Shown here: piece after piece, positions 686 through 23,344 of the stretch | Layout: each line of letters begins with the position of its first letter | Numbering within the stretch: the stretch's first letter is position 1 | Source of the DNA: an uncultured Candidatus Saccharibacteria bacterium | GTDB taxonomy: Bacteria; Patescibacteriota; Saccharimonadia; Saccharimonadales; Saccharimonadaceae | NCBI GenBank assembly: GCA_947302355.1 | Contig: CAMYUU010000006.1 | Location: 1-47,430 of the forward strand | Reading direction: 5' to 3' | Length of the DNA: 47,430 nt | Notes under the pieces: model-generated | The model's input: the letters and a program-made list of their open reading frames with translations, nothing else | Told to the model about the DNA's origin: nothing | The model's database searches: none | Program-made: the position numbers and the translations under genes

Positions 686-3600
686 TTAAATCACCCCTTT
701 AATTATAAAATTCCTCAATAGTCTATCAACTTCCATATTAACCTCAATCATCATAAGCTCTCGCTCCAGCTTCTTTTCTAGATACTGTTTTGCTTTTTCC
801 TTATCTACGGTATCTTTTAATTGATCAAAACGACCATACTCATTTAAAGTATGTTCGTTCAAATTTAAGTCAACCATTTTTCGCAATAACTCCGTGTCCA
901 GCCCAAGATTACTTGCAAGAGAATTAATTCTATCATTCTTATCCCTTGCCTCATACTCTGCTATATAATCCATAAATGACTTACCAGCCTCAACAGCTAT
1001 TTCACCACGCAAAATATCATTAATAAAAATCTTAGCAAACTTCTGCTGCCGAGCAGACAAGAATGCAAATGCCTTATGTAAATCATTCAAAGATTTTTCT
1101 AATTCCTCTGGCGAAATATTCTCTTGTCCAAGATTAACCAAGTATTTATGGAACTTCTTATTTAGATAATCCGAATCAATCTTTGTACGGTCATATTCCG
1201 TGATGTCAGTGTCGATATCAAATGGAAAACCGTCAATAACGCCACCACTACTACCTTCCAAATCTTTAGCACGCTGTTTAATAATCTCGACGAATTCGGG
1301 GCCAAAATCCAGACTAACATCGCATTCCAAGTTTTCAATAATGCTCTCACTAGAATCCTCAGTAGCATCATCTTCAACAATGATACCAGTCAACGCTTCG
1401 ACATTTTTATCAACCTTCAGACCTTGAATCTGAGCGCTCCGATAAGTCTTAACGAACTCCCTATACAGCTGACCAAATTTTTTCTGGTCAACCTCATCTT
1501 CTGGCAAAGTTTCAAAATTAACTATGCCGCAGCTCTCAAACAAATCCTTAATTTCCCCATACAAAATATTTAGCTTTATGACATTATCCTTCAATTTATC
1601 GACAAAAATTCCAAATGGTTTATTCCCCGAATACTCAGCAATAGCCTTCTCAATATACTTATCCATTGAAAACGGATATCGATAGTACTTTATTATTCCT
1701 GATGGCTTATCCTTATCACAAATACGATTCGTTCTAGAAAACGCCTGAACTATATATGCTCCTTGAAGCACCTTATCCAAATATAATACATTTAGCCATT
1801 TTGAATCAAATCCAGTCAACAGCTGATCTACAACGATAAGCAAATTAATCTTTTCTTCATCTTTTATTAATTGATATGGCTTCTTATGAGCAAATCTTTC
1901 AACGATATCCTCTTTCAGCTTCGCATAAGTCGGAAGCGAATAGGACATTCCATACTGTTCATTGTAATCATTTATAATCTCTTTTAGACCGTCCTCCTTA
2001 AATTCAAATCCATCCATATTATCTATAGTCGGATCAAATAAACAGCTGACCTTTAAATCTAATTCCTTCTTCTTAATCTCCTCCTTCAAAATCCTATAAT
2101 ATTCAATAGCCTCCGGAATTGAAGAAGTAGCTAAAAGGCCAGAAAACTTATTATTTCTAGAAATTACCTTTACGTTTTTCAGAATATTATCAACTACTGC
2201 ACGATGATGCTTTTCAGTTTGATATTGAGCCTTCGGTACATAGCTTTCAAGTCCATGGCCCACAACATTCCAATCCTCATCAAAGATATCACGCTCCATA
2301 GGTAAATCGCTAAGTTTATTATATACATCTGCTTTTTCAGGATCATTAAGCACCTCATCAATATTTTCAGACTTCGTCTCATGTATTGCAATAGCTTGTA
2401 TCAAATCTTCCGGTGTAAAAGTTGGCACACTCTTCGGATCAAACCCAAGCACATTTTTATCACGAATCCCGTCAGAAATACTATAACGATGAAGTTCATC
2501 GCCAAACACTTCCGCCGTATTCTTATCATCAGCCATTAATGGTGTACCCGTAAAGCCAAACATCATCGCCTTCGGAAATGTCTGCTTTATCGTCGCCATC
2601 ATCTCGCCAAAAACATCTCGGTGACATTCATCGACGATAAACACTAATCTCTTCTTATTAATAATATCTATATCCGCACTCGATAGCCCGTCATCCTTAA
2701 TTCTACTCATCTTTTGGATAGAAGTCACAATCAACATATCCGATGTATTATTACTTTTGAGTTTCGTTTTTAAGACATCAGTATTCTCAGTAGCCTGCAC
2801 ATCCTCCGCACAGTCAGCGAACCCTCTATACTCACGAAGGGATTGCGTACCCAGCTCTATCCTATCCATCAAGAACACTACCTTATCAGCATCCTGCGAA
2901 TTCGCAATCAGCTCAGCCGACTTAAAACAAGTCATCGTCTTGCCAGAACCAGTCGTATGCCAAATATACCCACCCAGCACTCGCTCATCATTAAAGTCCG
3001 CCTTCGCCACCTTGTCGCTAATCGCATTGGCTGCATAATACTGATAGCTACGCATCACTTTGAGCGTACTGTCGCCATCATCCGCCACAGTATAAAATCC
3101 AATTAGCTGATGCGCCATCGGGATGGAAAGAAGCGTAGATGCAATGGTTTTCCAATCATAAATTATCTCATTGTTGAAATCTTCCCAATGGAAATAAAAA
3201 TCAGAATTGAACTTAGAAAACTCACCTGGGTTTGCAAAATAGACCGTTTCCTCTGGCGTCATCGCAACAAAAACTTGTATTAATGAATATAATCCGCTAA
3301 ACTTACCTTCATAAGAATACTTTTGAATCTGAGTCGTTGCTTCACCGACAGAAACTCCGCTCTTCTTAAGCTCAATATGGATAACTGGCATACCATTAAT
3401 GAGAAGCATAATGTCACCACGCCGTTTGTAGCCAATCGGGTCCTCCGCTTCAAATCTTGGTTGCTCCGCTATTTGATATTTACTCTTCCCCGCCGCAATT
3501 TCATCACGATCATAAATATCAAGACTAATCTCCTTGCCAAGATGCTCAACATCCTCCGAATTATCACGCTTAATACTAACCGTCTTACCATTTATGAAAC

Positions 3601-3841
3601 CATTTAGTTTCAAAGGCGTCCTCAGCTCCTTTATCTGATCCAAGATTTGTTGCATCTCTGTATCAGTAAGAGGATAGTCATTAAGTCTATCCCTCTGACG
3701 ATTATTGTTAAAGAGAATATTCTTCCAGTTTTCAATCAAATCCTTTTCCGACGGGTTTTTGATTACTTCAGTCTCCCAACCCTTCGTCTGTAGCACCGCA
3801 ATTAACGCCGCTTCGAAATCTTTTTCTTTATCAAATCCCAT
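686..3841 (-). CDS. hsdR: Type I restriction enzyme, R (endonuclease/translocase) subunit
   Basis: HsdR is the motor and nuclease subunit of type I restriction-modification complexes, translocating and cutting unmethylated DNA. The 1051-residue protein has the expected order: an N-terminal PD-(D/E)xK nuclease (D143, E157-x-K159), then a superfamily 2 translocase with TTGSGKT (296-302), DECH (404-407) and GFTGTP motifs, then a helical C-terminal region that docks on the methyltransferase. Length is normal and no frame break is seen. It starts one base after hsdS ends, giving the operon order hsdM-hsdS-hsdR. Confidence 0.95.
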   Translation of the reverse strand: MGFDKEKDFEAALIAVLQTKGWETEVIKNPSEKDLIENWKNILFNNNRQRDRLNDYPLTDTEMQQILDQIKELRTPLKLNGFINGKTVSIKRDNSEDVEHLGKEISLDIYDRDEIAAGKSKYQIAEQPRFEAEDPIGYKRRGDIMLLINGMPVIHIELKKSGVSVGEATTQIQKYSYEGKFSGLYSLIQVFVAMTPEETVYFANPGEFSKFNSDFYFHWEDFNNEIIYDWKTIASTLLSIPMAHQLIGFYTVADDGDSTLKVMRSYQYYAANAISDKVAKADFNDERVLGGYIWHTTGSGKTMTCFKSAELIANSQDADKVVFLMDRIELGTQSLREYRGFADCAEDVQATENTDVLKTKLKSNNTSDMLIVTSIQKMSRIKDDGLSSADIDIINKKRLVFIVDECHRDVFGEMMATIKQTFPKAMMFGFTGTPLMADDKNTAEVFGDELHRYSISDGIRDKNVLGFDPKSVPTFTPEDLIQAIAIHETKSENIDEVLNDPEKADVYNKLSDLPMERDIFDEDWNVVGHGLESYVPKAQYQTEKHHRAVVDNILKNVKVISRNNKFSGLLATSSIPEAIEYYRILKEEIKKKELDLKVSCLFDPTIDNMDGFEFKEDGLKEIINDYNEQYGMSYSLPTYAKLKEDIVERFAHKKPYQLIKDEEKINLLIVVDQLLTGFDSKWLNVLYLDKVLQGAYIVQAFSRTNRICDKDKPSGIIKYYRYPFSMDKYIEKAIAEYSGNKPFGIFVDKLKDNVIKLNILYGEIKDLFESCGIVNFETLPEDEVDQKKFGQLYREFVKTYRSAQIQGLKVDKNVEALTGIIVEDDATEDSSESIIENLECDVSLDFGPEFVEIIKQRAKDLEGSSGGVIDGFPFDIDTDITEYDRTKIDSDYLNKKFHKYLVNLGQENISPEELEKSLNDLHKAFAFLSARQQKFAKIFINDILRGEIAVEAGKSFMDYIAEYEARDKNDRINSLASNLGLDTELLRKMVDLNLNEHTLNEYGRFDQLKDTVDKEKAKQYLEKKLERELMMIEVNMEVDRLLRNFIIKGVI

Positions 3842-3842
3842 A

Positions 3843-5051
3843 TTATACCTCCACCTTTACAAACATTTTATCCAAAAATGCTTTTTTAATATCTTTTAGC
3901 TTCTCGAGTTTAAACTGATAGAAATCAATGAGATTATCAACAGTATCTAGCAAATATACAATTTTGTTCTGTTCGTCAATCGATGGTATATTCAAGCAAA
4001 TATCATTAATATTCTTGGAACTCAAGCCCAGCTGTGCAGATCCGGTAACGAGCGGCATAATCTGTTCCCTAATATAATCGCTATTAATCTGGTAATGAAT
4101 AAAACGACCATTGACATCATTAAATCTAAGTCGATACACATGATCTCCTAAAACATAATGATTATTTGACGGAATATAGGCAGTTCTTCCGATTATTAAG
4201 CCCCCACCTATATCATCTTTTGGCATTACTAAATCGTTTTCTTGAAGCATGTCTCTTGCTTCATTGGTTTTTTTATATTCAATCCGCTTCCCCTCTTGAC
4301 TAACTGACCCCATATCCATCACTATGTATTTTCCATCAATTGCCAACTCATTCGAAAATGGTTTTCCAGTTATGAACCCAGTCATATCCCCCATTTTCTG
4401 CTGTTTCCAACCCCCAGCATAGCCGCTAAATCTTATTTCTGGTATATTTGAGCCATTTCGCGGGAACATTTTTTCTAATAATGATTTTTTTACAGTTTTC
4501 ATCTTTTCTAACTTACGCTGATGAAGAGTGATAAGGTTGTCGAAGCTAGTAATAAAACTGCCAATTCTTTTTTGCTCATCTTCTGAGACTGGCAAAGCAA
4601 TCTCTAAATTTGAAAGGTCATTTGAGTTTATTGCAGGATAGCTTGTACCTGTACAATTATCCAAAACAACCTTTACAAAACTATCAGTTTGCAAAAAGCA
4701 CATAAGGAAATCCGCATCTATCTTAGGTCTCATTTGTGTGTAGCCAGTAGAGAAAACATAATTATTATCAGGTTTTACAAACAAATAGTTGTTTCTCTGA
4801 TATGGTCTTACGGTTTGAAAGAATACGTCTCCAGTTTGCGCTAATCTCTGCGCTCTTGATGGAGCTGTTTCTCTCATTTCTGTTCTATAAGATACCATTT
4901 CTGTCCCCACAACAGACTCTAAATCAACATACTCAAATACCTCTGGGAGCTCAGATTTTGGATTAAATTCCGCAACTTCATATAACTTACGCTGCCCCCA
5001 AGCGTCAGTACATCTATTAAAGCGGATTTTCGGAGAAACACTTTTACTCAT
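3843..5051 (-). CDS. hsdS: Type I restriction enzyme, S (specificity) subunit
   Basis: HsdS selects the split DNA target of the type I complex. The 402-residue product has two target-recognition domains (about 15-175 and 210-375), each followed by a conserved helical spacer: a TLHQRKLEKMK segment ending in LLEKMF in the middle and a DFYQFKLEKLK segment ending in FLDKMF at the end. This two-fold symmetry is diagnostic. Both half-subunits look intact. Its ATG lies one base beyond the hsdM stop, implying translational coupling. The recognition sequence cannot be read from the protein. Confidence 0.93.
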   Translation of the reverse strand: MSKSVSPKIRFNRCTDAWGQRKLYEVAEFNPKSELPEVFEYVDLESVVGTEMVSYRTEMRETAPSRAQRLAQTGDVFFQTVRPYQRNNYLFVKPDNNYVFSTGYTQMRPKIDADFLMCFLQTDSFVKVVLDNCTGTSYPAINSNDLSNLEIALPVSEDEQKRIGSFITSFDNLITLHQRKLEKMKTVKKSLLEKMFPRNGSNIPEIRFSGYAGGWKQQKMGDMTGFITGKPFSNELAIDGKYIVMDMGSVSQEGKRIEYKKTNEARDMLQENDLVMPKDDIGGGLIIGRTAYIPSNNHYVLGDHVYRLRFNDVNGRFIHYQINSDYIREQIMPLVTGSAQLGLSSKNINDICLNIPSIDEQNKIVYLLDTVDNLIDFYQFKLEKLKDIKKAFLDKMFVKVEV

Positions 5052-5052
5052 A

Positions 5053-7623
5053 CTAGTGCTCCAATAGTTTTTTTAGTTCTTCTACGCCCTTCATATCATA
5101 ATCTGAACCAGTCAGTTCTGACAAATTTGCACATAGCTCTTTTTCAGTTTTAGCAATACTTTCAGATATATCCACAAGTGTCGTCTGATACTTAGTAGCT
5201 AAATGATTAATCTTCTTCACGAGCTTCATAATCAATCTATCATCCAATTGTTCAACTTCATCCACAATTGGCTGCACCCAATGCTTAATTAGCATCTCGT
5301 GTATTTGTTCGTCAGTTAATTCACTGGTAGCCTTTTTGGTAGCCTCCACCAGATTTAACTCAGCCTCTTTTATGGATTTTTTATATGTTTTTGCCTCTTC
5401 AAGCAATTTATCAATTTCCAGGATTTTTCCTTCAGCAGAATCCGCTTCAATACTTTCGCCTGACTTTCTAATTTCTTTAGCCCTTTTTTTGACATTAGCA
5501 TTTACAAAATCAGTATTATCCTCATTTAGACACTCACCAAATTCCTCTTTTTCATCCTCATCCAATGAGTCAAGTATCTCGCTTCGTTTCGCATCGGTTT
5601 CTTCAAGCTTTTCTTTTTCTTTTGATAATTCCTCAACCATTTCCGGAAGTATATTATTCTGAATCACATCAAAAGGAATAACATGTCCCTTCCAGCCGTC
5701 CTGAACTTCAACCTCCTCGTTACCCTTTTTCTTCATTATCATATTTGGATCAACTATTCTGACGCATTCTAGCCCTTCCTTTTGAATTAATTCAAGGTCT
5801 CCTGCTATCTCAGCATATTTATCATCCAGAATTTGATAGGCCGCATAATTGTCTATTAACTTAAAACCATCTAGCGTATCAAATAATCTTTTACTAATTA
5901 CACCCTCTTCTGATTCTATATCCACCTTCAATGCATTGTTCACTAATTCCGCTTTCAAATATTCTGGTAGATAAGAAATCGCTCGTTTGAATTTTACTCT
6001 GAAGTCTGCGACACTCTTATAATTCTTAATATACCCCGCCAAGTTATCCTGTTTCGCTGTATAGTATTCATCATTCACGACCTCAAATAAATCATCCCGA
6101 ATTCCAGGGAACTCAGCGAAATAACCATCCAAACTATCCAGTTCTGATTTTGGAATACCACCAAACATAGTTGCATAGATATCATAAGTCTCCGCTTCTT
6201 CAGACGAATCTACATAGCGCGGAATGTTCAAATTATAATCATTCTCACGTATCTCATCACGCGAAACAACCTTTGAAAACTTCTCAATGTCCTTCCGTTC
6301 CACAATAGCATCTACAATTTTCTTTACATCGCAAGAACGAAGTTTGTTCTTTTTACCATCCTTAACAAATCCCTTTGATGCATCAATAATTTGAACATCT
6401 GTGTTACTACGTTCTTTCTTGAGCACCATAATAATTGTAGGGATCCCAGTCCCAAAGAAAATATTCGCAGGTAAACCAATTATTGCATCAATACGGTTTT
6501 TCTCAATCAACTTTTTACGAATCTCACCCTCTTCGCCGCCACGAAATAGCACGCCATGAGGTAAAACGATCGTCATAATTCCATCTTGTTTCAAATGGAA
6601 TAAATCATGCAGTAAGAATGCATAATCCGCTTTCTTTTTTGGCGCCAGACCATAGTCTTTGAAGCGCGGGTCATTTGTCATATCAGTCTGATCCCAATCT
6701 TGAGAATAGGGCGGATTTGACACGACGGTATCAATATATAACGGGCTATAAGTACCCTCAGGGTCAGAATCATCAAAATATGGCCAATCAGAAGCTAACG
6801 TATCGCCATTCCGCACTATGATATTAGACGGAGAAATACCACGCATTACCAAGTTCATACGCGTCAGATTATAAGTGTTCTGCTTTAATTCTTGAGCATA
6901 ATACTTAATCTTATTGTCACCTTTAATATATTTCGATACGCTCTTACCAATATTAATCAAAAGTGACCCAGAACCGCTTGTTGGGTCGTAGATACTTATT
7001 TCATTACGGTCTTTTAGATGGTTCGCAATTATTTCCGACATCAATACTGATACTTCGTGTGGAGTATAAAACTCGCCAGCTTTTTTCCCGGCATTTGCTG
7101 CAAAATTACCAATCAAGTATTCATAGATAAAACCAAGCACATCATAATCGGCCTTATTGTTCATTGGTATTGTCTTTATTAAATTCAGTAAATCAGAAAC
7201 TGCTTTCGTTTGGTTCTTTGTCGTATCCCCCAATTTAGATAATCCAGTTTCTAGTGTATTAAAGATACCGGTAAATACTTTTTCATGAGACTTATCAATA
7301 AGACGCCCAAACCGTGAAAGCGCATCACGCACATTAGATACATCAAATTTTGTACCTTTACTGAGCCAAGTGGAAAACAAATCATCATAAGCAATAAAAT
7401 ATCCCAAGTTTTTTTGAGCATAGTCTTTAAACTTTTCATTTGTTTCTTTAAGCTGCGTCAAATCCGACAAACCCTGTTCTTCGAAGAACTTCTCTTCTTT
7501 ATCCGAGAGGAATTTGTAAAAGATAAACCCCAAAATATAATCTTTGTATTCATTTGCATCAATTTTGGAACGCATCTTATCCGCCGATTCCCAAATCTTT
7601 GATGCTAATTGTTGCTTATTCAT
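5053..7623 (-). CDS. hsdM: Type I restriction enzyme, M (N6-adenine methyltransferase) subunit, long form
   Basis: HsdM methylates adenine in the HsdS target. It has an N-terminal HsdM helical domain, EFYTP near 186, the SAM-binding DPTSGSGSLL near 215-224, and catalytic NPPY near 305. At about 856 residues it is much longer than the usual 500-550; the extra C-terminal third is charged, Glu/Lys-rich and predicted coiled coil (about 640-850), as in some fused or extended M subunits. The second ATG (7621-7623) is preferred because AAGGA lies 8 nt upstream. A TATAAT sequence near 7704-7709 (minus strand) could be the operon promoter, leaving a leader of some 75 nt. Confidence 0.92.
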   Translation of the reverse strand: MNKQQLASKIWESADKMRSKIDANEYKDYILGFIFYKFLSDKEEKFFEEQGLSDLTQLKETNEKFKDYAQKNLGYFIAYDDLFSTWLSKGTKFDVSNVRDALSRFGRLIDKSHEKVFTGIFNTLETGLSKLGDTTKNQTKAVSDLLNLIKTIPMNNKADYDVLGFIYEYLIGNFAANAGKKAGEFYTPHEVSVLMSEIIANHLKDRNEISIYDPTSGSGSLLINIGKSVSKYIKGDNKIKYYAQELKQNTYNLTRMNLVMRGISPSNIIVRNGDTLASDWPYFDDSDPEGTYSPLYIDTVVSNPPYSQDWDQTDMTNDPRFKDYGLAPKKKADYAFLLHDLFHLKQDGIMTIVLPHGVLFRGGEEGEIRKKLIEKNRIDAIIGLPANIFFGTGIPTIIMVLKKERSNTDVQIIDASKGFVKDGKKNKLRSCDVKKIVDAIVERKDIEKFSKVVSRDEIRENDYNLNIPRYVDSSEEAETYDIYATMFGGIPKSELDSLDGYFAEFPGIRDDLFEVVNDEYYTAKQDNLAGYIKNYKSVADFRVKFKRAISYLPEYLKAELVNNALKVDIESEEGVISKRLFDTLDGFKLIDNYAAYQILDDKYAEIAGDLELIQKEGLECVRIVDPNMIMKKKGNEEVEVQDGWKGHVIPFDVIQNNILPEMVEELSKEKEKLEETDAKRSEILDSLDEDEKEEFGECLNEDNTDFVNANVKKRAKEIRKSGESIEADSAEGKILEIDKLLEEAKTYKKSIKEAELNLVEATKKATSELTDEQIHEMLIKHWVQPIVDEVEQLDDRLIMKLVKKINHLATKYQTTLVDISESIAKTEKELCANLSELTGSDYDMKGVEELKKLLEH

Positions 7624-7779
7624 TACCATTTTCCATTTTCCTTGTTTACATATTTAGACTACTCCCACACAGAATATAGCTACAGTAATCACTATTAAGA
7701 TTATTATACCATAAAAGTCTTCGACGTTTATATCACCCATTCTTAACAGGCTTAGAGGCACAAAGGCAAATGTCTAATT

Positions 7780-9135
7780 CTATTCGTTAGTTTTGGTTAG
7801 GGTCTCGTAACTTCTGTTTACGTCGCAAATAATCCATTTCGCATTACTATCCTTATGTATTCTATACTTCCATTCTGGAGCATCATCAACGAATCTAAAT
7901 TCTATCCTTGTTAAAACCTCATCTTGATACCTGTTTAAATCTATATTAAAAACATGGCAGACCAAATCGATCTCCGGATTATTATCTCCAGCAGTAAGGC
8001 CGATGCCTGAATGAGTAATGGAATCTACCATATTATTTACGCCAATACCTTTCCTCGCATCTAAAAACCTACGTGACAAAAAGAAAAAAGCCACAGAAGA
8101 ATCCACCGATTCATTAGCTTCAGCGAACGCAATCACACTGCGTAATAAAAACTTCAATGAGCGCATAGTAAATAAGGACGAATCGGAACAAGCCAAGATG
8201 GTTAGCTTGATCGTTTCAACTAGCTTTTCATCGCAACATCCAGCCGATTCCAGTAATTGTTGCACTTGTTCTTCTGTTACTTTTCCGGAAAGAGTTCCGT
8301 AAATTACGTCTTCATATATTTTTATTGAGTTTTCAAGTTTCGCAACAGAGTCCCAATGATCATCACCATTTTTATACATAATACTGCCAAATGAATAATC
8401 ACGTTGTGGGCATATAACTAATAGAGATTTGTCTCCTATGTCTTTCAAAAAACATTTTAAAGTCTCGAGAAATCGTTGTCCATCATCGCCAGATCGATCT
8501 ACGTCCTCAATTATTATCACGACTGGTTGATTATTCTTTCTTATAACTTTGTTTAACTCGTCCTTATATTGAACTAATGTTTTCATCTTCGATTCATGGA
8601 TTGGGAAAACTCTATTTATCCCAGCAAGTGCTATGAAAACTGGCGCCGCATATATCAAAAAGGCACGCAAAAAGCGAATCACCGCACAATCAGAGTCCTT
8701 CAGTAAAAACCACGCAACACAACTTGCGACAAAATAACATAGAGAGTATAAGCTCAATACGCGCCATCGTATTTTTGTACCATCAATTCTATCAATAATC
8801 TTCTTCTCTTTCTCGTACTCTAATTCAGATAAAGTCTTTATTAGAAATGATTCCCAAATATCCTTCTTACTTGAACATTGCCAAATATCAAATTGTATTT
8901 TTTTATATTTTTCTGGCAGCTCTTTTAATACATTATTCAGAACCACACTTTTTCCTGAACCATAAGGCGCCAAGTAAGCAACAATTCTCGGCTTGTGCTT
9001 TTTCAATTGTTTTAAAATATAGTTTTTAATTCTATCAATCTCTTTTTGCTGATATCCTAGGGGATTTTCTTCTATTGTTTCATCCAGAACGTCAAGATGA
9101 GAAAAGAGTCTTCCCTCCTTTTTATTATTTTTCAT
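7780..9135 (-). CDS. KAP-family P-loop NTPase with two transmembrane segments
   Basis: The 451-residue protein has a Walker A motif APYGSGKS (56-63) and a Walker B motif with four hydrophobic residues before EDVDR (205-213). Two hydrophobic segments (about 126-146 and 152-175) are inserted between them, the hallmark of KAP NTPases, which are membrane-associated with the ATPase domain in the cytoplasm. KAP proteins are frequent in phage-defence neighbourhoods; a defence role here is inference from that and from the adjacent hsd operon. Its start overlaps the end of the ImmA-like peptidase by 4 bases, so it is probably co-transcribed with the XRE-ImmA pair. Confidence 0.82.
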   Translation of the reverse strand: MKNNKKEGRLFSHLDVLDETIEENPLGYQQKEIDRIKNYILKQLKKHKPRIVAYLAPYGSGKSVVLNNVLKELPEKYKKIQFDIWQCSSKKDIWESFLIKTLSELEYEKEKKIIDRIDGTKIRWRVLSLYSLCYFVASCVAWFLLKDSDCAVIRFLRAFLIYAAPVFIALAGINRVFPIHESKMKTLVQYKDELNKVIRKNNQPVVIIIEDVDRSGDDGQRFLETLKCFLKDIGDKSLLVICPQRDYSFGSIMYKNGDDHWDSVAKLENSIKIYEDVIYGTLSGKVTEEQVQQLLESAGCCDEKLVETIKLTILACSDSSLFTMRSLKFLLRSVIAFAEANESVDSSVAFFFLSRRFLDARKGIGVNNMVDSITHSGIGLTAGDNNPEIDLVCHVFNIDLNRYQDEVLTRIEFRFVDDAPEWKYRIHKDSNAKWIICDVNRSYETLTKTNE

Positions 9136-9740
9136 TTTTCAACCCTTTCTATCTCCGGGAACACCTCCCTAATCCTCCTCGCAATTACATCATTTGAAAC
9201 CTTGAATTTTCGCCGAATGCTGTTGAATATCCTCTCCCGTTCCCCATCACTCGCCAGCCACACATTTTTCAAAAAATCACCATTATAATACTTGTTAAGT
9301 GCTATTGCAAATTCATCACTAGGTACCAGCAGATTCGCTGCAAAGAAATTCGCTTGGAATTCAGCATTATCTGTCGCAATCTGCCTAGAAATTTTCAACC
9401 ACTCATCTATATTCTTTACGCTAGACGGGTAATACTTCTGATGAAGTAGCAAATGCCCCAATTCGTGTGCCACGCTAAATCTATATCTCGGACTTTCCTT
9501 TTCAAATTCAGCTTCATCCACATATATTGTTCTAAAGTCTACCGACACATACGCATCAATATAAAACATGCGATTAAGCTTCGGAACAGGAATAATACTA
9601 ACCCCCAAACCATCGCATAACAGCTCTACGTCTACCGGAAACACTCCGTCCCAACATTCTTCTAGTAAATTATCTACCTCCTTGATTATTTTATCCTTAG
9701 CTAGGTAAGGAATTTGCCCACCCTTACCTAAATAAATCAT
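9132..9740 (-). CDS. ImmA/IrrE-type zinc metallopeptidase
   Basis: The 202-residue product contains the zinc-protease signature HELGH followed by LLLHQK (about residues 93-103) within an ImmA/IrrE (DUF955) domain. Relatives cleave XRE-type repressors to switch on mobile elements or stress genes. The XRE gene immediately upstream (3-base gap) is the natural substrate candidate, and the downstream KAP gene overlaps by 4 bases. A repressor-protease pair driving an effector NTPase is an inference from gene order. Confidence 0.88.
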   Translation of the reverse strand: MIYLGKGGQIPYLAKDKIIKEVDNLLEECWDGVFPVDVELLCDGLGVSIIPVPKLNRMFYIDAYVSVDFRTIYVDEAEFEKESPRYRFSVAHELGHLLLHQKYYPSSVKNIDEWLKISRQIATDNAEFQANFFAANLLVPSDEFAIALNKYYNGDFLKNVWLASDGERERIFNSIRRKFKVSNDVIARRIREVFPEIERVEK

Positions 9741-9743
9741 TAT

Positions 9744-10115
9744 TTATTCTTCCTTTCCGGAACTCCTGATTAGCTTTAATAGTTTTTCAGCTTCTTCCCT
9801 ATCTAACTTTTCATTTCGTAAAGTTCGATAGAACGCTGGCAACATCGCTACCGCCCGCTCATCATCCCGCAAATCAATCGGTAACTCATTTTTTGCCATT
9901 GAAGCAAGATCTAAGAATTCTTGCCATTCACTAGAACCTTTAGCGATACCAAGCGCAAGACCTAGCTTTGTCAATTTGTTGGAGTCCTTTGGGGGTGTTG
10001 TAATCCCATTCTCAAGCCGCGAAATGTAGGCCACGTCATAGCCATTGTCTTTCGCAAACTCTCTTACGGTTCCAATCGCCCGCCTTTTTTGTTTAAAGAA
10101 TTGGCAAAAATCCAT
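9744..10115 (-). CDS. XRE-family helix-turn-helix regulator
   Basis: The product (about 123 residues) starts with an XRE helix-turn-helix: RRAIGTVREFAKDNG, then VAYISRLENG, the recognition-helix pattern, in the first 50 residues. The ATG at 10113-10115 is chosen because AAAGGAG lies 5-6 nt upstream; an in-frame ATG five codons earlier would contain that RBS. It is the first gene of XRE-ImmA-KAP and likely regulates its own promoter. The upstream region contains TATAAT near 10141-10147 on the minus strand. Confidence 0.88.
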   Translation of the reverse strand: MDFCQFFKQKRRAIGTVREFAKDNGYDVAYISRLENGITTPPKDSNKLTKLGLALGIAKGSSEWQEFLDLASMAKNELPIDLRDDERAVAMLPAFYRTLRNEKLDREEAEKLLKLIRSSGKEE

Positions 10116-10174
10116 ATTACTCCTTTGCATTACCTACTTATTATTATACTCTTGTTGTATAAAAAAATCAACAA

Positions 10175-10483
10175 CTATTTCGAGTTACTGTCTAGGCCAA
10201 TAACTGTTACATCAATTATTTCTGCCAACTTTTCCCTATCATCCACCTCCCCCACCAACCACATCGGCTTCGCTCCAGGATACGGCACAGCCTCTTCCAT
10301 CCCGAACCCTTCATTCCCTGAACACTTCTTCAACAACAGCCTATCATCATAAATCCCCCCAATCAGCACCCCATCTATATACAATAAATACTCCCCCATC
10401 ATCGGCCGACAACTGGCGTCAGAAAACCCCGCCGCTAGGAGCTGCTCCAATATATAATCTCGATATTCCTTCGTACTTGCCAT
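10175..10483 (-). CDS. TfoX N-terminal-domain protein
   Basis: The 102-residue protein matches the stand-alone TfoX_N domain: a MMGEYLLY segment, the GVLIGGIYDDRLLLK core and the MWLVGEVDDREKL end. In Gammaproteobacteria TfoX promotes competence, but single-domain TfoX_N proteins elsewhere have no settled function. The start codon follows TATAAT by 9 nt, so the transcript would have nearly no leader and no RBS. A fragment of a second copy lies at 12360-12440. Confidence 0.8.
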   Translation of the reverse strand: MASTKEYRDYILEQLLAAGFSDASCRPMMGEYLLYIDGVLIGGIYDDRLLLKKCSGNEGFGMEEAVPYPGAKPMWLVGEVDDREKLAEIIDVTVIGLDSNSK

Positions 10484-10563
10484 ATATTATATATTATACA
10501 CTCTCTCTATCCTTAACAAACCGCACTACTATTACTATAGTGACCACCCTTCACCCAAGGTGC

Positions 10564-10569
10564 TATAAT
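10564..10569 (+). promoter_or_regulatory. Extended -10 promoter, leaderless start
   Basis: TGC followed by TATAAT, then 6 nt and the ATG at 10576. Transcription starting at the usual distance begins on or next to the A of the ATG, and there is no RBS. Confidence 0.7.
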
Positions 10570-10575
10570 ATCCCC

Positions 10576-10785
10576 ATGGACGACTTATCAGAAGATGATA
10601 TCGAAACCCTCGGTATCGAAGACGGCACCTACGACCGCGATAATAAAATGTCATACCAAGCCAGCTTTGGCTCTTCCGTCGATCTCGACGAACTCAGCGA
10701 CGAAGAACGCGAAGCCTACGAGCTCGGCTATGAAATAGGCGCCGAAAACTACGACCTAGACATCGATGATGAAGATGATTTCTAA
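10576..10785 (+). CDS. Small acidic protein, unknown function
   Basis: The 69-residue product is very acidic (MDDLSEDDIETLG at the start, DLDIDDEDDF at the end), with a DEERE-x-YELGYEIG segment in the middle. No cysteines or membrane segments are seen. I do not recognise a named family; the composition suggests a soluble, partly disordered protein that binds basic partners, which is speculation. The ATG at 10576 is preferred over an upstream in-frame ATG because a strong extended -10 promoter overlaps the earlier part, so the mRNA should start at this codon. Confidence 0.7.
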   Translation: MDDLSEDDIETLGIEDGTYDRDNKMSYQASFGSSVDLDELSDEEREAYELGYEIGAENYDLDIDDEDDF

Positions 10786-10845
10786 ACTATTCTTGGTGCT
10801 CATCATGACTACGAGCATGTTTAAGACGCAGGAAAGGTCCTTCAA

Positions 10846-11145
10846 CTAAGAATATTCAAACAGAATGCTATTCGAAGCTTTCTCTATCAAGTTATCATCC
10901 TTAACCAGAATTTCGCGTTGAAGCACAAATTCCAGTCCATCACCCTCAAACTTCAATAAATGCGGAAAAACGTCAAACTCGAAGTCGCCAGTATAATCGG
11001 CTGAAATTAAGAGATATTTCTTGCCACCATCCTCAAAAAGATAAATCCAAGTATCCGGTCCGACTTGGTAATGACTCATTTCGGTGGCATTTTCGTATCC
11101 ATAAATAGCCATCACATCTTTTCGTTCTGATTTTGATAAATACAT
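10846..11145 (-). CDS. Hypothetical protein, 99 aa
   Basis: A small soluble protein with alternating beta-strand-like segments (TWIYLFEDGGKKYLLIS, then DFEFDVFPHLLKF). I do not recognise the family. It is predicted leaderless: on the minus strand TGG-TATAAT is followed by TAGAGT and the ATG. It shares the interval with the terminator of the coiled-coil gene upstream (11170-11194). Confidence 0.6.
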   Translation of the reverse strand: MYLSKSERKDVMAIYGYENATEMSHYQVGPDTWIYLFEDGGKKYLLISADYTGDFEFDVFPHLLKFEGDGLEFVLQREILVKDDNLIEKASNSILFEYS

Positions 11146-11169
11146 ACTCTAATTATACCATAAAAAGAA

Positions 11170-11208
11170 AAGGCCGGCAACTTGCGCCGGCCTTAGTATT
11201 TGGTTGGC
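11170..11208 (-). terminator. 3' trailer motif plus abutting terminator of coiled-coil gene
   Basis: Reading leftward: GCCAACCAAATACT (11208 to 11195), then with no gap a GC-rich hairpin AAGGCCGGC/GCCGGCCTT (11194 to 11170), then a short T-rich tail. The 14-mer is the exact reverse complement of the first 14 nt of the predicted transcript (12249 to 12236). Confidence 0.8.
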
Positions 11209-11214
11209 TAGCAC

Positions 11215-12189
11215 TTAAATCCTGTGCGTATCCGTGCCGCGCTTCCTGGAATCATCAATCAGATAATCGTCGTGATCCTGCCAGGCATCACGCAGATAAG
11301 TGACATTTCCATCGCGGTCAATCACGGCGTGCCCATGGCCCATGCCGTCTCCAGCCGCGTTTAACCCACCGAAGTACACATGCGTAGTGCCATCGCCATG
11401 CGGGACAATCTTCGCATTCTGACCAAACAAAGTTCCGAGATAGTGCGCATTAGACTTCATGAGCACCATGTTTACTTTGTCTACGGTCTTTTGCTTCTTT
11501 GCAGCACGCTCCGATTTCACTTCTTCAAGTTTACGGTCGAACGCGGCTTGAGCCTGCTTGAACTGAGACTGAAGACGATTGAACTCGTCTCTTGCAGAAT
11601 CGCGCAAGGCCTTCAATCTCTTAAACTCATCCTGGGCCGCTTTGTGGCGAGCCTTTGCCAACTCAAAAGTAGACTTCGCATGATTGAATGCGGAAGAATC
11701 TACTCTTGGGGCTGAAGCCTCAGCATTTGCTTTGGCTTGCTTAACTTCGCGAGCGAGTGCTGAGATTGTGGCATTAAGCTCATCGCGACGCGCCTTATGC
11801 TCATGCCCCTCCTGAGAGTAGTATCGAGCTCCAGCTTTATCACCACATCGATAAGCATTGCTGGCGCGTTCGAAGCAATCCTGCATTGCATGATGCTCGG
11901 CATCAGCCTCATGTTTCAACGACCCAATCCTAGAGTTATTATGGTCACGAATACGACCATATTCACTCCAAACCGTATCGCGATGAGCATAAGCCGATTG
12001 TCTGGCTTCGAATTCGCTATTCATGCGCTCTCTCGCACGGACTCGTTCGTCCCATGCGGACTGCATAGTGTCATATGCCACATTTGTTTGTCCTTGTAGG
12101 TCCTTAAGTCTCTGGAAGGCAGCCTGCTTTTGTTCGAAAAGCGACTGCCGTTCCGCCTTCAGCCTATCCAATTCTGGATTTCTCGGCAT
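11215..12189 (-). CDS. DUF1771-like coiled-coil protein
   Basis: The 324-residue protein is mostly charged alpha-helix and coiled coil (about 1-245). Residues about 90-150 (AEHHAMQDCFERASNAYRC, GDKAGARYYSQEGHEHKA) match the pattern of DUF1771, usually found before an Smr nuclease domain; no Smr domain follows. The last 85 residues form a different compact domain rich in Gly/His/Asp (GDGMGHGHAVIDRDGNV) that I do not recognise. The start has a moderate RBS (AAAGG). The promoter is strong (TTTACA, 17 nt, TATAAT), and the two mRNA ends carry a perfect 14-nt complementarity, unlike the predicted leaderless genes nearby. Confidence 0.75.
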   Translation of the reverse strand: MPRNPELDRLKAERQSLFEQKQAAFQRLKDLQGQTNVAYDTMQSAWDERVRARERMNSEFEARQSAYAHRDTVWSEYGRIRDHNNSRIGSLKHEADAEHHAMQDCFERASNAYRCGDKAGARYYSQEGHEHKARRDELNATISALAREVKQAKANAEASAPRVDSSAFNHAKSTFELAKARHKAAQDEFKRLKALRDSARDEFNRLQSQFKQAQAAFDRKLEEVKSERAAKKQKTVDKVNMVLMKSNAHYLGTLFGQNAKIVPHGDGTTHVYFGGLNAAGDGMGHGHAVIDRDGNVTYLRDAWQDHDDYLIDDSRKRGTDTHRI

Positions 12190-12235
12190 ACATAATCACC
12201 AACCTTTCAAAATAGTAACGTACGTTTGAATCTGT

Positions 12236-12284
12236 GCCAACCAAATACTCATATTATTATAACATATTCTATTATATATGTAAA
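12236..12284 (-). promoter_or_regulatory. Promoter and 5' panhandle arm of coiled-coil gene
   Basis: On the minus strand: TTTACA (12284-12279), 17-nt spacer, TATAAT (12261-12256), 6 nt, then AGTATTTGGTTGGC (12249-12236). The predicted +1 is the first base of this 14-mer, which is perfectly complementary to the motif directly before the terminator. A second GGTTGGT beside the RBS (about 12190-12200) can pair with the same trailer as a shorter alternative. Confidence 0.75.
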
Positions 12285-12359
12285 CTAGCTCAAAAGCAGA
12301 GCGCTCAAAAACCCACTCGGTTCAGACACTCAATCGTACCGTACAATATTAACGAGCTA

Positions 12360-12440
12360 TTATGTTGCTAAACCATCTACGGTTTGGTGAATTATCTCTT
12401 CTAGCTTTTTCCTATCATCTACTTCACTCACCAGCCACAT
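12360..12440 (-). pseudogene. TfoX_N C-terminal fragment
   Basis: Reading leftward from 12440, 26 codons (MWLVSEVDDRKKLEEI, then IHQTVDGLAT and a stop) closely match the end of the TfoX-domain protein at 10175-10483 (MWLVGEVDDREKLAEI). The rest of that gene is absent. The neighbouring membrane-protein gene reads into it in another frame and ends on a TGA inside it, so the breakpoint is at or just right of 12440. Confidence 0.75.
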
Positions 12441-13404
12441 CTACTTCTTGATGCAACTTAGCAAACTTCTTTGACTTGCCGTCGATTTCGTTGAAATCCT
12501 TCTCAGTTGGCTTCCCTTTCATGCCGGATTCGATGTAGTTACGTAGTACACCTACCAAGATGAATGGTCGTACGAATGTTGAATGGATAATTTCCCACAT
12601 TACTACGCCACCAATTCCGGCTGCGATTAATTGTAAATTGTTAGGATTCGTCAAAATCTCTGATACTTCTTCGCCTTCGGAGGCCATCTTTGCAAACTCT
12701 GCTGCTAGTGCCGCAAAAGCTTCTGGGAATGCCATTGTAATCAAATAGAAAATACCAAAGAAAATCCCACCAATCACTGCGAGTGACAAAAGTCCCATTC
12801 CAAAGATTCTTCCTAGATTCTTTGCAAGAGTTTTACCATGCTTAAAGAATAATACGCCACCTTCAAGTGTAGCCTTGGTCGCCTTCTCATCTTTGCGGTA
12901 AAATACCCAGCCAAGACAACAATCGCATAGATATCCCACTACTACATTGATGGCGCTCGAAATCGTGCTACCAATTGCATTACCACTATCTCCGCCAATC
13001 GCGCTTCCAACTGCCGTGATTGCTTTGCCGAGCTCGTTAAAGATTCCTTTAATTACATTCGTCACCGCATAATATGCAGCTACCGTCAAGAAGCGTTCTT
13101 TGACGATCTTCTTTCCCTCGCCATATACGTCATCCGGCAGTTTGCCGTCAGTGATTGCCCGCGTCATCATTGCAATTTGGCCAGCCTTAAATACATATGA
13201 GAAGAAATGTGAAACAATCGCGACGATTATGATACCAATAACGATACCGATAACTAGCCCAATCAGCCCGTTAGCAGCCGCTTTCTCGGCCAAGAAAAAT
13301 CCTGCCGCCGCCACTATTATAATAATGACAAATGCCAACACGTCCCACAAAAAACGCCTTAGCGAAAAAGTCAAAGTCTTTTTATATATTTCCTTATTAT
13401 CCAT
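12424..13404 (-). CDS. Polytopic membrane protein, unknown function
   Basis: The 326-residue protein has several hydrophobic segments (about 21-39, 46-69, 140-165, 203-230 and 258-285) and short charged loops, so it is an inner-membrane protein. A Gly/Ser/Ala-rich stretch with AIGGDSGNAIGSTISSA lies in the middle. The family is not recognised. The last codons (VDVAGE) come from the out-of-frame tfoX fragment, suggesting the original C-terminus was lost or replaced. TGC-TATAAT near 13440 on the minus strand offers a promoter inside the end of the MBL gene. Confidence 0.7.
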   Translation of the reverse strand: MDNKEIYKKTLTFSLRRFLWDVLAFVIIIIVAAAGFFLAEKAAANGLIGLVIGIVIGIIIVAIVSHFFSYVFKAGQIAMMTRAITDGKLPDDVYGEGKKIVKERFLTVAAYYAVTNVIKGIFNELGKAITAVGSAIGGDSGNAIGSTISSAINVVVGYLCDCCLGWVFYRKDEKATKATLEGGVLFFKHGKTLAKNLGRIFGMGLLSLAVIGGIFFGIFYLITMAFPEAFAALAAEFAKMASEGEEVSEILTNPNNLQLIAAGIGGVVMWEIIHSTFVRPFILVGVLRNYIESGMKGKPTEKDFNEIDGKSKKFAKLHQEVDVAGE

Positions 13405-13421
13405 ATTTGCCCTACATTATG

Positions 13422-14006
13422 TTAATTAATAATTGAATTATAGCATAAAAAATACATTAGCTTCACTCTGTCTTCAATCCCAGCCTCTTTACATAATGCC
13501 AAGAATTCGTCCACTGACGCAAGCTCCGGGTAGCCACTTGCTTCCGTCCGATAGTGCATCGGAATAATGCGTTTTGGTCGGCTGGCACAGCAAATATCAA
13601 CCGCAGTTTTCGCATCGATCGTGTAGTATCCACCTACCGGAATCAATAAATAATCTGCGCCCGAAATCTTGGCCAGCTGGTCGTCATTCGGGAAATGTCC
13701 TAAATCACCTAGATGTACCAATTTCTCTCCACCTTTAGTAATTACAAAGATAGTATTCGGCCCCCGAAGCGCGCCCTGCTTATCATCGTGCCAACTCGGC
13801 ACCTCTTCAATTTCGAAGTCACATTCTTCTGGGGTAATCTCTACGCATCCTCGCCCACTATGATCAGCGTGTTCATGTGAGCAAATTACCTTTCGTGCCG
13901 ACACACGCAAAGGCTCTAACCCCGGCACACTGCCATCTTTATACGGATCAACCACTAGCTCGTCATCTAATCTAAAGCAAGCATGTCCTAAGAATTCTAT
14001 TTTCAT
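13422..14006 (-). CDS. Metallo-beta-lactamase-fold hydrolase
   Basis: The 194-residue product begins with the MBL-fold pattern FLGHACFRL and contains the metal-binding SHEHADHSG (about 43-51), followed by HLGDLGH (about 97-103) and a late IPMHYRTE. It resembles the UlaG-like/UPF0173 group, whose substrates vary. The RBS AGGAGG is well placed. It starts 24 bases after the GmrSD-like gene, in the same direction, so the two may be co-transcribed; the membrane-protein gene follows. Confidence 0.88.
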   Translation of the reverse strand: MKIEFLGHACFRLDDELVVDPYKDGSVPGLEPLRVSARKVICSHEHADHSGRGCVEITPEECDFEIEEVPSWHDDKQGALRGPNTIFVITKGGEKLVHLGDLGHFPNDDQLAKISGADYLLIPVGGYYTIDAKTAVDICCASRPKRIIPMHYRTEASGYPELASVDEFLALCKEAGIEDRVKLMYFLCYNSIIN

Positions 14007-14030
14007 AATTCCGCCTCCTCTTCATAACGT

Positions 14031-15797
14031 TTATCGTGCAATCTTCAGCATGTTTTCGATACCACGTATCAAATATTGACCACGCGAAACAATCTTATCC
14101 ATAGCGCGCTGAGTGGCATCGCCCGATTCGTCTTCTTTATTGCTGATCAAATAATCTTCTACTACCGTAATCGTAGTATCAAACGGAATATAGCCTGACT
14201 TATACTTATCGTTGCCACGGTAGATATCAATCTTTCTATCCATGCCGTAATTTAGCGCCTCAAGATTCTTCACTGCCGAACAAAGAGCCATATTGCCAAT
14301 CGTATTTAGATGCCCTTTTATCTCCTCATAATCAATGCCCGGCCACGCCTCAGGCCTTTTGTTGAATTGTTTTGGCAAAATATGGTCAATATGTACACTG
14401 TTATTATTGAGATAAAAAGTAGTATTAAGTGAACTTCTGAGCTCGTATTCAAGCGAGAATAGTAGCGGCTTTAGGAAGCTCTCGCCATAGACTTCCCCAT
14501 CCAAAGCCTCATAAGCGTCACGTATTAGCATCTTATTCTTAATAAAGTCCTCAGCTTCCTCCCGAATCTCAGATAGTGGCGCATTCTTACTGATCATTTT
14601 AATCATATTAAAAGAAGTCTGCTTGATAGAGTTTAGAGTCTTGCCAGCAATCCAACACAAATAGTAAAAACGTCTAAGGGCGGTAAATAGCCCTACGATA
14701 TCAGGATATTTTGCAGTATACGCCGTAGTCATCGCCGCCATCGCGTGCACACTCCAGGGGACATATCTAAGGCTATAGACCAGCGACATTTCTTCTCGGC
14801 TTTTCTTGTCGGCTTGGAAGATTTCCTTCATGCCGTTTTCAAAATTACTTAACTCTTGCACTAGTGCCGCTACATCATTTTCTTTTACAATCTCATAGAA
14901 ATCATCCGTAATTTGCTTACGCGGCAGGCTACTTAGCTTATAGTAGCTATAGTAAGCCAGAAACTCATCCATCTTAATATCATTCTCGCTACAAGTTTCC
15001 TCAATCCGGCGCCAGTTCTGCTCAAAAATATTCTTGCCATTTTCATTATCACCGTATTTATCTAAAATGTACGTCTTAATGATGTCCGCAGAAGCCAAAT
15101 CCTTGCCTCGGTCGTTAAGAATCAAAAATAGCTTAATGGCAAACGGCTCATCATAGCACACAATTTTAATAATATAGATGTTATAGATAATATATTTTAC
15201 GAATTTAGCCAGCTCATCCATGCCGTATTCATCTACGAAATTCTTGAAATTATCGTAAAAGAATTTGGCGGTATTACGGAATTTATGGGACGGATCCTCC
15301 CTCTTTAGTAAGGTCTTAGGAACGCTTTCAATCTTGCTATAATCTTCGCAATTCACAATCTCACGACGAAATACTGAATCGTATTCCGGGCGCGTCTGTA
15401 GCTGCAGCATGCTCTCGTCTTCGCCGTTGTAATAAATCAGGTTTCTGAGAACTGTGCTATTCACGTAGTCGTGATCCCTTTCATCCCGACGGCTGTTGAT
15501 TTCGGGATAGGTCTTATAGAGTACATTTAACATAATCATGAGTGTGGTAATGCGTTGTTGGCCATCTACGACCGAGAGACCTTCGTTGCTAGCTACTACC
15601 ACTACGGATCCCAGGAAATAATCGTTTTGCTTTGGGTTGCGATATGCATCTAGAAAATCGTTCCAGAGATCGTCTAATTCTTCATTGCCCCAACTGTATT
15701 GGCGCTGGTACCTTGGTATCACAAAAATCCCTTCAGACCCCATAAAAAATCTGCGGATACTTTCGTTTGAAGGGTTGAATGATTTCTTTTCGTCCAT
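14031..15797 (-). CDS. DUF262/DUF1524 protein, GmrSD-like type IV restriction enzyme
   Basis: The 588-residue single polypeptide fuses an N-terminal DUF262 domain (IPRYQRQYSWGNEELDDLW; VVDGQQRITTLMIML, the ParB-like NTPase motif) with a C-terminal DUF1524 HNH nuclease (HIDHILPKQF near 470-480). This is the GmrSD architecture, which cuts phage DNA with modified cytosines using NTP. The exact target here is unknown. The catalytic segments look intact. It is the second restriction system in the window and is transcribed away from the 273-aa protein at 15887. Confidence 0.88.
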   Translation of the reverse strand: MDEKKSFNPSNESIRRFFMGSEGIFVIPRYQRQYSWGNEELDDLWNDFLDAYRNPKQNDYFLGSVVVVASNEGLSVVDGQQRITTLMIMLNVLYKTYPEINSRRDERDHDYVNSTVLRNLIYYNGEDESMLQLQTRPEYDSVFRREIVNCEDYSKIESVPKTLLKREDPSHKFRNTAKFFYDNFKNFVDEYGMDELAKFVKYIIYNIYIIKIVCYDEPFAIKLFLILNDRGKDLASADIIKTYILDKYGDNENGKNIFEQNWRRIEETCSENDIKMDEFLAYYSYYKLSSLPRKQITDDFYEIVKENDVAALVQELSNFENGMKEIFQADKKSREEMSLVYSLRYVPWSVHAMAAMTTAYTAKYPDIVGLFTALRRFYYLCWIAGKTLNSIKQTSFNMIKMISKNAPLSEIREEAEDFIKNKMLIRDAYEALDGEVYGESFLKPLLFSLEYELRSSLNTTFYLNNNSVHIDHILPKQFNKRPEAWPGIDYEEIKGHLNTIGNMALCSAVKNLEALNYGMDRKIDIYRGNDKYKSGYIPFDTTITVVEDYLISNKEDESGDATQRAMDKIVSRGQYLIRGIENMLKIAR

Positions 15798-20646: not shown

Positions 20647-21093
20647 ATGTCTTTTGACGGTAAAAAATACGAGCTTGTGCTCGACGATTCAATTGTGTTT
20701 TACGGAAGGACTCTCTATCGGATTAGGGCGCTAAAGGCGTTTCACGATGTGGAACCATCGGCTCTAGGCGGCTACATTGAATCTGAAGATAACCTATCTC
20801 AAGATGGCGATTGCTGGGTGTATTCTGGTTCGATGGTTTTTGATCAGGCTCAAGTCTTAGAGAACGCTATGGTTTATGGGGGTGCTAAGGTTTATGGTCA
20901 CGCTCTAGTGCGGGATAGTGCGCGCGTCTACAACTGCGCGAAAATCTATGGAAGTGCCCACATTGGTGATGGAGCCTGGGTTTCAGGCTACGTTAGAATC
21001 TGCGGAAGTGTCCAAATCTACGGAGATTCACGAGTTTTCATCGCCTCTACGAGTGGCATGATATGCGAATCTGGACAAGAGGAGGAATTGTAG
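20647..21093 (+). CDS. YdcK-like hexapeptide beta-solenoid protein, paralog 1
   Basis: The 148-residue protein starts with the family head ([34 protein letters not shown]-x-G-x-CW, about 6-60) and continues with about 11 six-residue repeats of the form A-x-V-Y-G-x (about 61-130), predicting a short left-handed parallel beta-helix. E. coli YdcK and many phage proteins share this head-plus-solenoid layout; no enzymatic residues are evident and the function is unknown. It is the shortest paralog. It has its own promoter, leader and terminator. A deleted trmD copy overlaps its end on the other strand. Confidence 0.8.
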
Positions 21094-21406
21094 CCAGACC
21101 CGAAGACCGACAAAAGACGTCACTCTTAGAGTGGCGTCTTTTGCTATCTTTATTTATCCCACCAGAGTGTTCTTCGCGCCGCTTAGCAATTTCACCATGA
21201 TTTCCGGAGAGTAGTACCTCTGGTACTTTCATGCCCCTGAAATCTTCTGGCCTTGCGTATTGGGGGTATTCCAGATTGTCCCCATCCGAAAACGATTCAA
21301 TGTCTACAGATTGTTCCCCGCCTAGTGTGGCTTTTTCCATCATTGAAGACTTAAGATATGGCTCTAAAGCCTCCTGAAATAGCGTAATGATTGTAAATTT
21401 AACCAT
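21047..21406 (-). pseudogene. trmD: trmD duplicate with internal deletion
   Basis: From the ATG at 21404-21406 the first 27 residues ([16 protein letters not shown], then [11 protein letters not shown]) match trmD at 23139, then jump directly to [16 protein letters not shown], which matches the C-terminal part. About 130 residues holding the SAM-binding knot are missing. DNA identity to the intact copy is near 97% over the retained parts, so the duplication is recent. After EEHSG the frame runs into unrelated sequence overlapping solenoid gene 1. The promoter (TGT-TATAAT, 6 nt, ATG) is retained. Confidence 0.85.
21106..21143 (+). terminator. Trailer motif and terminator, solenoid gene 1
   Basis: ACCGACA (21106-21112) pairs with the leader TGTCGGT. 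The terminator stem AAAAGACG-T-CACTC / GAGTG-G-CGTCTTTT begins at its last base. The sequence also works as a terminator for the trmD remnant on the other strand. Confidence 0.8.
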
Positions 21407-21458
21407 AGGGGCATTATAACACATTGGCTTCAAGCGTACCCCATCGCTACAAGTATAA

Positions 21459-21546
21459 TTGACCAATAATCTCAAATATGATACAAATTAAAACAATTAT
21501 CTATCCATCTTTGTAGATGTATATATAGCTCTTTAAATCGTTGGTT
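21459..21546 (+). promoter_or_regulatory. Promoter and leader of solenoid gene 2
   Basis: TTGACC, 17-bp spacer ending TGA, TACAAA (21482-21487); a small hairpin ATCTA/TAGAT; then TATATAGCTCTTTAAA and the motif TCGTTGGTT (21538-21546), complementary to GACCAACGA at 22414-22422 with one G-U pair. Confidence 0.75.
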
Positions 21547-21576
21547 TTGTCTATTATCTAGGGAAGGTGATGAAAA

Positions 21577-22395
21577 ATGACGGAAAAGAAATATGAATTA
21601 ACAGAAGAAACCAAGAATCTACACGGGCGTACGCTTTATCGCATTCGTGCACTGAAAGCGTTTGGCTTTGGTAAAGTCAAGGAGGGTGACCTTGGTGGTT
21701 GGGTTGAGTGGGAAGGAAACCTGGACCAAAAAGGAAACTGCTGGATTGCCGACGAGGCTATGGTTTATGGATCGGCCGAAGTTTCTGAAAATGCTTGGAT
21801 TACCGGTCGTGCCAAAGTCTATCGGCTTGCCAAGATCTCTGGTAACGCCATGGTCTTTGGCGACGCCGAAGTCTCTGGCATGGCCATCGTCACTGATTCA
21901 TCTCGGATTTCCGATAATGCCGTAATAAGCGGCATCGCCAGGATCTCCAAGTATGCTCAGATCCGTCAAGACGCTACCGTATCCAATTCTGCCCAGGTTA
22001 CTGACGACGCCGAAGTTTCCGGTAACGCCAGGGTCTTTGATGGCGCTTGTATCTCCAGAGTCGCCAAAGTTACCAGTTATGCTAGAGTCTATGGTGCAGC
22101 CAGAATATCAGGCAACGCTGTGATATCGGGCAACGCCGCAGTCTCCGGTGATGCCGAAATTACCGGGTCCGCTTATATCGGCAATCATGCAGAAATAAGC
22201 GATTACGCCTACGTTGCCAACGGAGCCAGGGTTTTTGATTATGCCAAAGTATCCGGCCACGCGAGGATTCTCGATGACGCACACATTCTTTTCAATGCCG
22301 AAGTTTCTGGTGACGCCATAATTACAGGCGACTCGTTAATCTGTCGAGATGAGAAAATCACCACAGGGACTCACCATAATCATACACCAGATTAG
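21577..22395 (+). CDS. YdcK-like hexapeptide beta-solenoid protein, paralog 2
   Basis: The 272-residue protein has the family head ([36 protein letters not shown], about 3-58) and then about 33 hexapeptide repeats (for example GNAMVFGDAEVSGMAIV) up to residue 255, which predicts a long, straight beta-helix. No signal peptide or membrane segment is seen, so a cytoplasmic or phage-like structural role is likelier than surface display. An RBS GGAAGGTGA precedes the ATG. It ends in a terminator homologous to those of paralogs 3-5. Confidence 0.82.
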   Translation: MTEKKYELTEETKNLHGRTLYRIRALKAFGFGKVKEGDLGGWVEWEGNLDQKGNCWIADEAMVYGSAEVSENAWITGRAKVYRLAKISGNAMVFGDAEVSGMAIVTDSSRISDNAVISGIARISKYAQIRQDATVSNSAQVTDDAEVSGNARVFDGACISRVAKVTSYARVYGAARISGNAVISGNAAVSGDAEITGSAYIGNHAEISDYAYVANGARVFDYAKVSGHARILDDAHILFNAEVSGDAIITGDSLICRDEKITTGTHHNHTPD

Positions 22396-22413
22396 GAGTG
22401 GTGAGCTTAGCGT

Positions 22414-22450: not shown

Positions 22451-22462
22451 CATGCCATATGA

Positions 22463-23319: not shown

Positions 23320-23344
23320 CTTTCTATTCTTGGAAGGGGCGGAA

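Follow-up and report, generated by a model that had tools for sequence, protein, structure and literature searches.

Pairing between the leader and the 3' region of one and the same message is known from a few bacterial mRNAs. In the hbs mRNA of Bacillus subtilis, a 14-nt interaction that joins leader and 3' UTR (Braun et al. 2017, as described in PMC7821165) shields a leader site from RNase Y, which has been shown experimentally for that single gene (PMC7821165). In the icaR mRNA of Staphylococcus aureus, the motif UCCCCUG within a long 3' UTR covers the Shine-Dalgarno sequence; this pairing inhibits translation and yields a substrate for RNase III (PMC3868564). A long-range 5'/3' pairing of 7 bp is also present in S. 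aureus RNAIII, its effect on translation being not proven (PMC7821165), and long-range mRNA duplexes are cut by RNase III in B. subtilis (PMC11780869). According to a review, whether leader/trailer pairing extends to other genes needs investigation (PMC7821165). Our literature search found little transcript-level work on Patescibacteria. The results presented below suggest that this kind of pairing, known elsewhere from so few messages, seems to be common in one genus of Saccharibacteria.

We started from a window of 47,430 nt, contig 6 in the draft assembly of a 727-kb genome. On the minus strand of this window, a gene (11215–12189) lies between two 14-nt arms that are 1028 nt apart; its product is a coiled-coil protein of 324 aa that contains a DUF1771 segment (PF08590, 1.6e-11). 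The 5' arm, AGTATTTGGTTGGC (12236–12249, minus strand), is the exact complement of positions 11208–11195, that is, of the 3' arm GCCAACCAAATACT (minus strand), the identification of which is based on complementarity and on coordinated changes in homologs. The 3' arm adjoins, with zero gap, the stem AAGGCCGGC..GCCGGCCTT (11194–11170, minus strand) of an intrinsic terminator, a hairpin of 10 pairs, 7 of them G-C, with a T-rich tail after it. At the other end, a promoter scan found TTTACA-17-TATAAT with TG before the -10 box (12256–12284, minus strand; 11 of 12 consensus matches). Since the first arm base (12249) is the 7th nucleotide after this near-consensus -10 box, it is a plausible +1. Thus, the perfect 14-nt end pairing, the predicted transcription start at the first paired base and the direct contact with the terminator stem, all of which had been proposed in the first-pass annotation, are upheld at the level of sequence. 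The helix occupies positions -60 to -47 relative to the start codon and ends 46 nt before it, leaving the ribosome-binding region AAAGGTTGGTGA (12196–12207, minus strand) free. The predicted transcript (12249–11162, 1088 nt) folds into a 14-bp end helix with the terminator hairpin directly after it, the pair probabilities of the arms in the full-length fold being 0.89 for the outermost pair and above 0.99 for the others. The end helix was unaffected when the codon order of the coding sequence was shuffled and the transcript refolded. Curated covariance models of Rfam matched a tRNA alone over the window, and the focal leader corresponds to no described leader or riboswitch.

Two other features of this leader deserve mention. 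An overlapping upstream ATG within the conserved start region TTATGTATG (12194–12165) opens a 9-codon out-of-frame reading frame, and the overlap is kept as ATGTATG or ATGAATG in most DUF1771 relatives. The leader also carries the motif GTACGTTA (12216–12223, minus strand), which belongs to the GYACNTTW class recognized by its excess over shuffled leaders. Genome-wide, GYACNTYW is found in 78 of 1097 leaders compared to 18.8 in shuffles, and GCACATT, the commonest form of GYACNTT(T/A), in 33 of 1097 compared to 2.4. The GYACNTT(T/A) motif is positioned about 20–31 nt before the start codon and stands out among promoter and Shine-Dalgarno words; examples of its leader sites in the window are 12223–12216 (minus strand) and 23302, 24923 and 27046 (all three plus strand).

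A good homolog of the DUF1771 gene was found in 36 of the 174 genomes of the genus. Among these relatives, a helix of the focal type is confined to a close clade, represented by nine distinct arm pairs from 10 genomes, and in the close homologs having the arm it follows the -10 box after 5–6 nt. Eight of the 14 pairs (inner pairs 5–12) are invariant across the nine arm pairs, and two more change on both sides. Sliding the partner by 1–3 columns lowers the proportion of paired cells from 88% to 18–44%; since most pairs do not vary, the percentage for the nine arm pairs does not stand out above column shuffles (95/500). Coordinated changes are seen in two sets of loci, each of which are sisters on the protein tree. 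L009 and L010 differ at pair 14 (C-G versus T-A), while L100 and L101 differ both at pair 13 (G-C versus A-T, i.e., A-U in L101) and at pair 14 (C-G versus T-A). In each of the two sister sets, U-A has thus replaced C-G at pair 14, implying coordinated change at least twice at this position and once at pair 13. In other words, complementarity has been kept by compensatory changes, modest in number. Pair 14 is either C-G or U-A, except in the L011/L099/L120 group, where it is broken; more generally, several of the nine sets of arms have breaks among their outermost pairs (e.g., L011, L099, L120 and L123).

The helix at +1 is absent from the DUF1771 relatives L102, L012, L107, L108, L109, L111, L025 and L127, and since some of these, such as L102 and L012, are close, it is not indispensable. 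In more distant members, a leader hairpin preceding GTACNTTTA takes the place of the end helix. Some of these (L106 and L110) have ACCAACC before the terminator, which matches their own ribosome-binding GGTTGGT. The upstream leader varies among the homologs and the AAAGGTTGGTGA region is kept in most of them. Beyond the terminator, a 99-aa gene (10846–11145, minus strand) is adjacent to the DUF1771 gene in close relatives as well (13 loci identified by tblastn, 54–68% identity). Together with the variable C-terminal ends of the coiled-coil protein among relatives, this co-travelling small neighbour (10846–12189 for both genes) resembles an effector with its partner protein. The surrounding stretch (686–15797) is rich in defence genes, including type I restriction-modification (HsdR, HsdS and HsdM), a KAP NTPase, a GmrSD-type endonuclease and an M78 peptidase with an HTH gene.

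The first-pass annotation had also suggested searching other genes for complementarity between leaders and the nucleotides preceding terminators. We performed such a search on the whole of the own genome (G000) and on most of each of two other genomes of the genus (G050 and G043), with positive results in all three. Genes were identified with a simple caller and joined into runs, of which those ending in a terminator were kept (94, 125 and 94 for G000, G050 and G043, respectively). The longest exact match over 110-nt leaders turned out to be too blunt a statistic (matches of at least 8 nt were seen 7 times, with 4.5 expected), and we therefore used duplex energies between the leader and the 16–18 nt before the terminator stem, comparing own and swapped partners by double centring and permutation. 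Own partners pair better than swapped ones in all three genomes (z of -3.7, -4.9 and -4.6 in the same order), while a control stretch 22–40 nt before the stem gave z of -0.5, +1.2 and +0.1. With 20,000 permutations, the values were -3.9, -4.3 and -4.7, or -7.4 combined. Outside leader positions -40 to -4 and the ~15 nt closest to the stem, the signal disappears. It comes from single-gene transcripts (z = -8.8, n = 207), multi-gene runs showing no excess (z = 0.07, n = 106). Reversing the 3' segment retained a z of -3.9 (-1.3 when it was reverse-complemented), so that composition or simple runs account for part of the signal, and our claim leans also on a comparison with 200 shuffles of each 3' 16-mer. 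In that comparison, the mean z was -0.65 for own partners, -0.09 for swapped and -0.02 for far ones; the difference between own and swapped partners (P = 2.6e-7) is order-specific. At the level of individual transcripts, p<0.05 was reached by 42 of 313 (~16 expected) and p<0.01 by 16 of 313 (~3 expected), the focal gene being one of five with p<0.001. Leaders are thus complementary to their own 3' UTRs beyond chance, as in the class to which hbs and icaR belong. A 300-kb sample of E. coli K-12 (47 runs) had no signal (z = -0.9), and z was close to zero in other Saccharibacteria, gut Saccharibacteria and other Patescibacteria, where 26–43 runs each provide low power.

These data support the earlier proposal of an RNA architecture common to unrelated genes, own partners pairing better than swapped ones throughout the three genomes. 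The idea that pairing takes place exactly at the predicted transcript ends holds for the focal gene but not for most others, in which the helix is placed further into the leader, after +1 and before the ribosome-binding site, which it covers in some cases. As had been noted, the coiled-coil gene is unrelated to the YdcK-type beta-solenoid genes at 20.6–28 kb of the window, one of which provides a second example: its leader segment TCGTTGGT (21538–21545, plus strand) has a partner, ACCAACGA (22415–22422, plus strand), 1 nt before the terminator stem. For the solenoid genes, the preference for own over swapped partners is significant (P = 0.0005), and in a solenoid relative, L070, TAGTTGATTTTTCTA(C) has its exact complement after the stop codon, making a perfect pair of 15–16 nt. 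Within the solenoid cluster (20647–28053), several genes share a near-identical GCACCGC..GCGGTGC terminator and have leaders carrying GTACTTTTA-(A)TCGTTGGT. Elsewhere, the G043 transcript C3:95818 has a helix at +1, designed as in the focal gene. The 3' segment ATGTTCCTGATGACC of C3:44765 in G000 matches two leader pieces, one of them at the ribosome-binding site. An unrelated, widely conserved gene family shows co-change of leader and trailer among nine orthologs with terminators (P<5e-5 by permutation), the mean duplex energy being -15.3 kcal/mol for own and -11.5 kcal/mol for swapped partners.

Taken together, these observations are best read as recurrent cis pairing between 5' and 3' UTRs, of the kind known for B. 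subtilis hbs and S. aureus icaR and with sequences specific to each gene. As judged from sequence, the two arms of the focal gene are probably the ends of one mRNA that pair in cis; that the duplex forms in cells and has an effect there is our inference. RNA polymerase would start from the first 5'-arm base, and once the 3' end had been made, the 14 nt next to the terminator stem would zip onto the first 14 nt. The coding region would be closed into a loop, with the new helix adjoining the terminator hairpin. Because the ribosome-binding site of the focal gene would stay free, we favour mRNA stability as the main effect: with both ends double-stranded, decay of the RNase J or RNase Y type would find no 5' entry and 3' exonucleases would be denied access, a protective effect like that reported for hbs. 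In genes having the Shine-Dalgarno sequence covered by the 3' segment, translation should instead be damped as soon as the full transcript exists, similarly to icaR. Genes for RNase Y, an RNase J-type enzyme and RNase III are all present in the genome; these enzymes make up the machinery of the known hbs and icaR cases. It is somewhat easier to believe than to doubt that, as a rule, single-gene mRNAs of this genus pair end to end, each evolving matching segments of its own next to the ribosome-binding site and the terminator, and that this amounts to a genome-wide way of closing or gating messages in reduced genomes.

A different balance of functions is conceivable, though we consider it the less probable one. 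The 3' segment could be an anti-leader acting mainly on translation, as in icaR, with ribosomes loading only until the 3' end is made and stability being secondary. Such a role is suggested by 14 of the 45 best helices, which extend into the Shine-Dalgarno zone, by C3:44765, L290 and L293, in which the 3' segment matches both the +1 segment and the Shine-Dalgarno site, and by the ACCAACC segments of L106 and L110. The focal gene does not fit: although a 3' motif over the Shine-Dalgarno site occurs in some other genes of the genus, here the helix stops well short of the start codon, with AAAGGTTGGTGA free. It is improbable that the 3' segment is a small RNA, released or acting in trans on paralogous leaders having GGTTGGTGA or GTTGGT. 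The conserved leaders of paralogs would offer common target sites, but the fit is poorer when paralogous or orthologous partners are swapped in, and only one DUF1771 homolog of the focal kind exists in the focal genome.

Cis pairing of transcript ends, our preferred reading, also has to be weighed against explanations in which the arms have no role in RNA. As a perfect inverted repeat encloses a single gene, and restriction and defence genes abound nearby, the arms might be taken for the terminal repeats of a mobile unit or cassette, the alternative by which the first-pass annotation would have been refuted. This is very unlikely: a search of the whole genome allowing 0 or 1 mismatch found no second copy of the arm, arm sequences differ among relatives, and unrelated genes have the same geometry with other sequences. 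Furthermore, the promoter outside one arm and the terminator and 99-aa gene outside the other are conserved along with the gene, which argues against a unit bounded by the arms. Neither bounding repeats, nor other copies or empty sites, nor unconserved flanks were found; integron-like readings were rejected too, as the arms are not repeated and not at unit borders, and R''-like (RYYYAAC) cores misfit. Least credible of all is a chance match. The first-pass annotation had called chance very unlikely, which is true of the placement at both ends but not of the 14-bp length alone: by 4^14 arithmetic, a 47-kb window should contain about one inverted pair of 14 bp with arms no more than 6 kb apart, and a second one is indeed present (40558/42614), so that it is placement, and not length, that is decisive. 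Against chance are the exact position at +1 and at the terminator stem, the co-variation in homologs and the genome-wide excess at the same positions; in addition, swapped leader/trailer matches never exceeded 12 nt when the 88 terminator-ended transcripts of the own genome were shuffled 20 times. The second pair was considered as transcript ends and discarded, being a palindrome, AGTAATATTACT, repeated on both sides of an alanyl-tRNA synthetase-like gene (42614–42627 and 40558–40571). Its copies are in leader-like positions of neighbouring genes and may represent an operator.

Since the comparison of own and swapped partners detects pairing across three genomes of the genus, at exact positions and with co-varying orthologs, the question raised in the review becomes directly testable. 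The comparison further suggests that bacterial transcripts hold, in their 3' ends, information directed at their own 5' ends, and it opens a way into the study of gene regulation in Patescibacteria. Among the described systems, RNAIII is similar in being a coding transcript with long-distance pairing of its ends, but its pairing is 7 bp and belongs to a regulatory RNA. Like icaR, the focal gene has a short 3' UTR motif whose partner is its own leader; it differs in having the helix at +1, adjoining the terminator, and a very short 3' UTR. The focal gene also resembles hbs, in which a 14-nt leader/3' UTR interaction likewise takes place in cis within one mRNA, in a host that has both RNase Y and RNase J. 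What sets the present case apart from hbs, as far as sequence can tell, is that many unrelated single-gene mRNAs of another phylum have such pairing, each with gene-specific sequences placed directly before the terminator stem.
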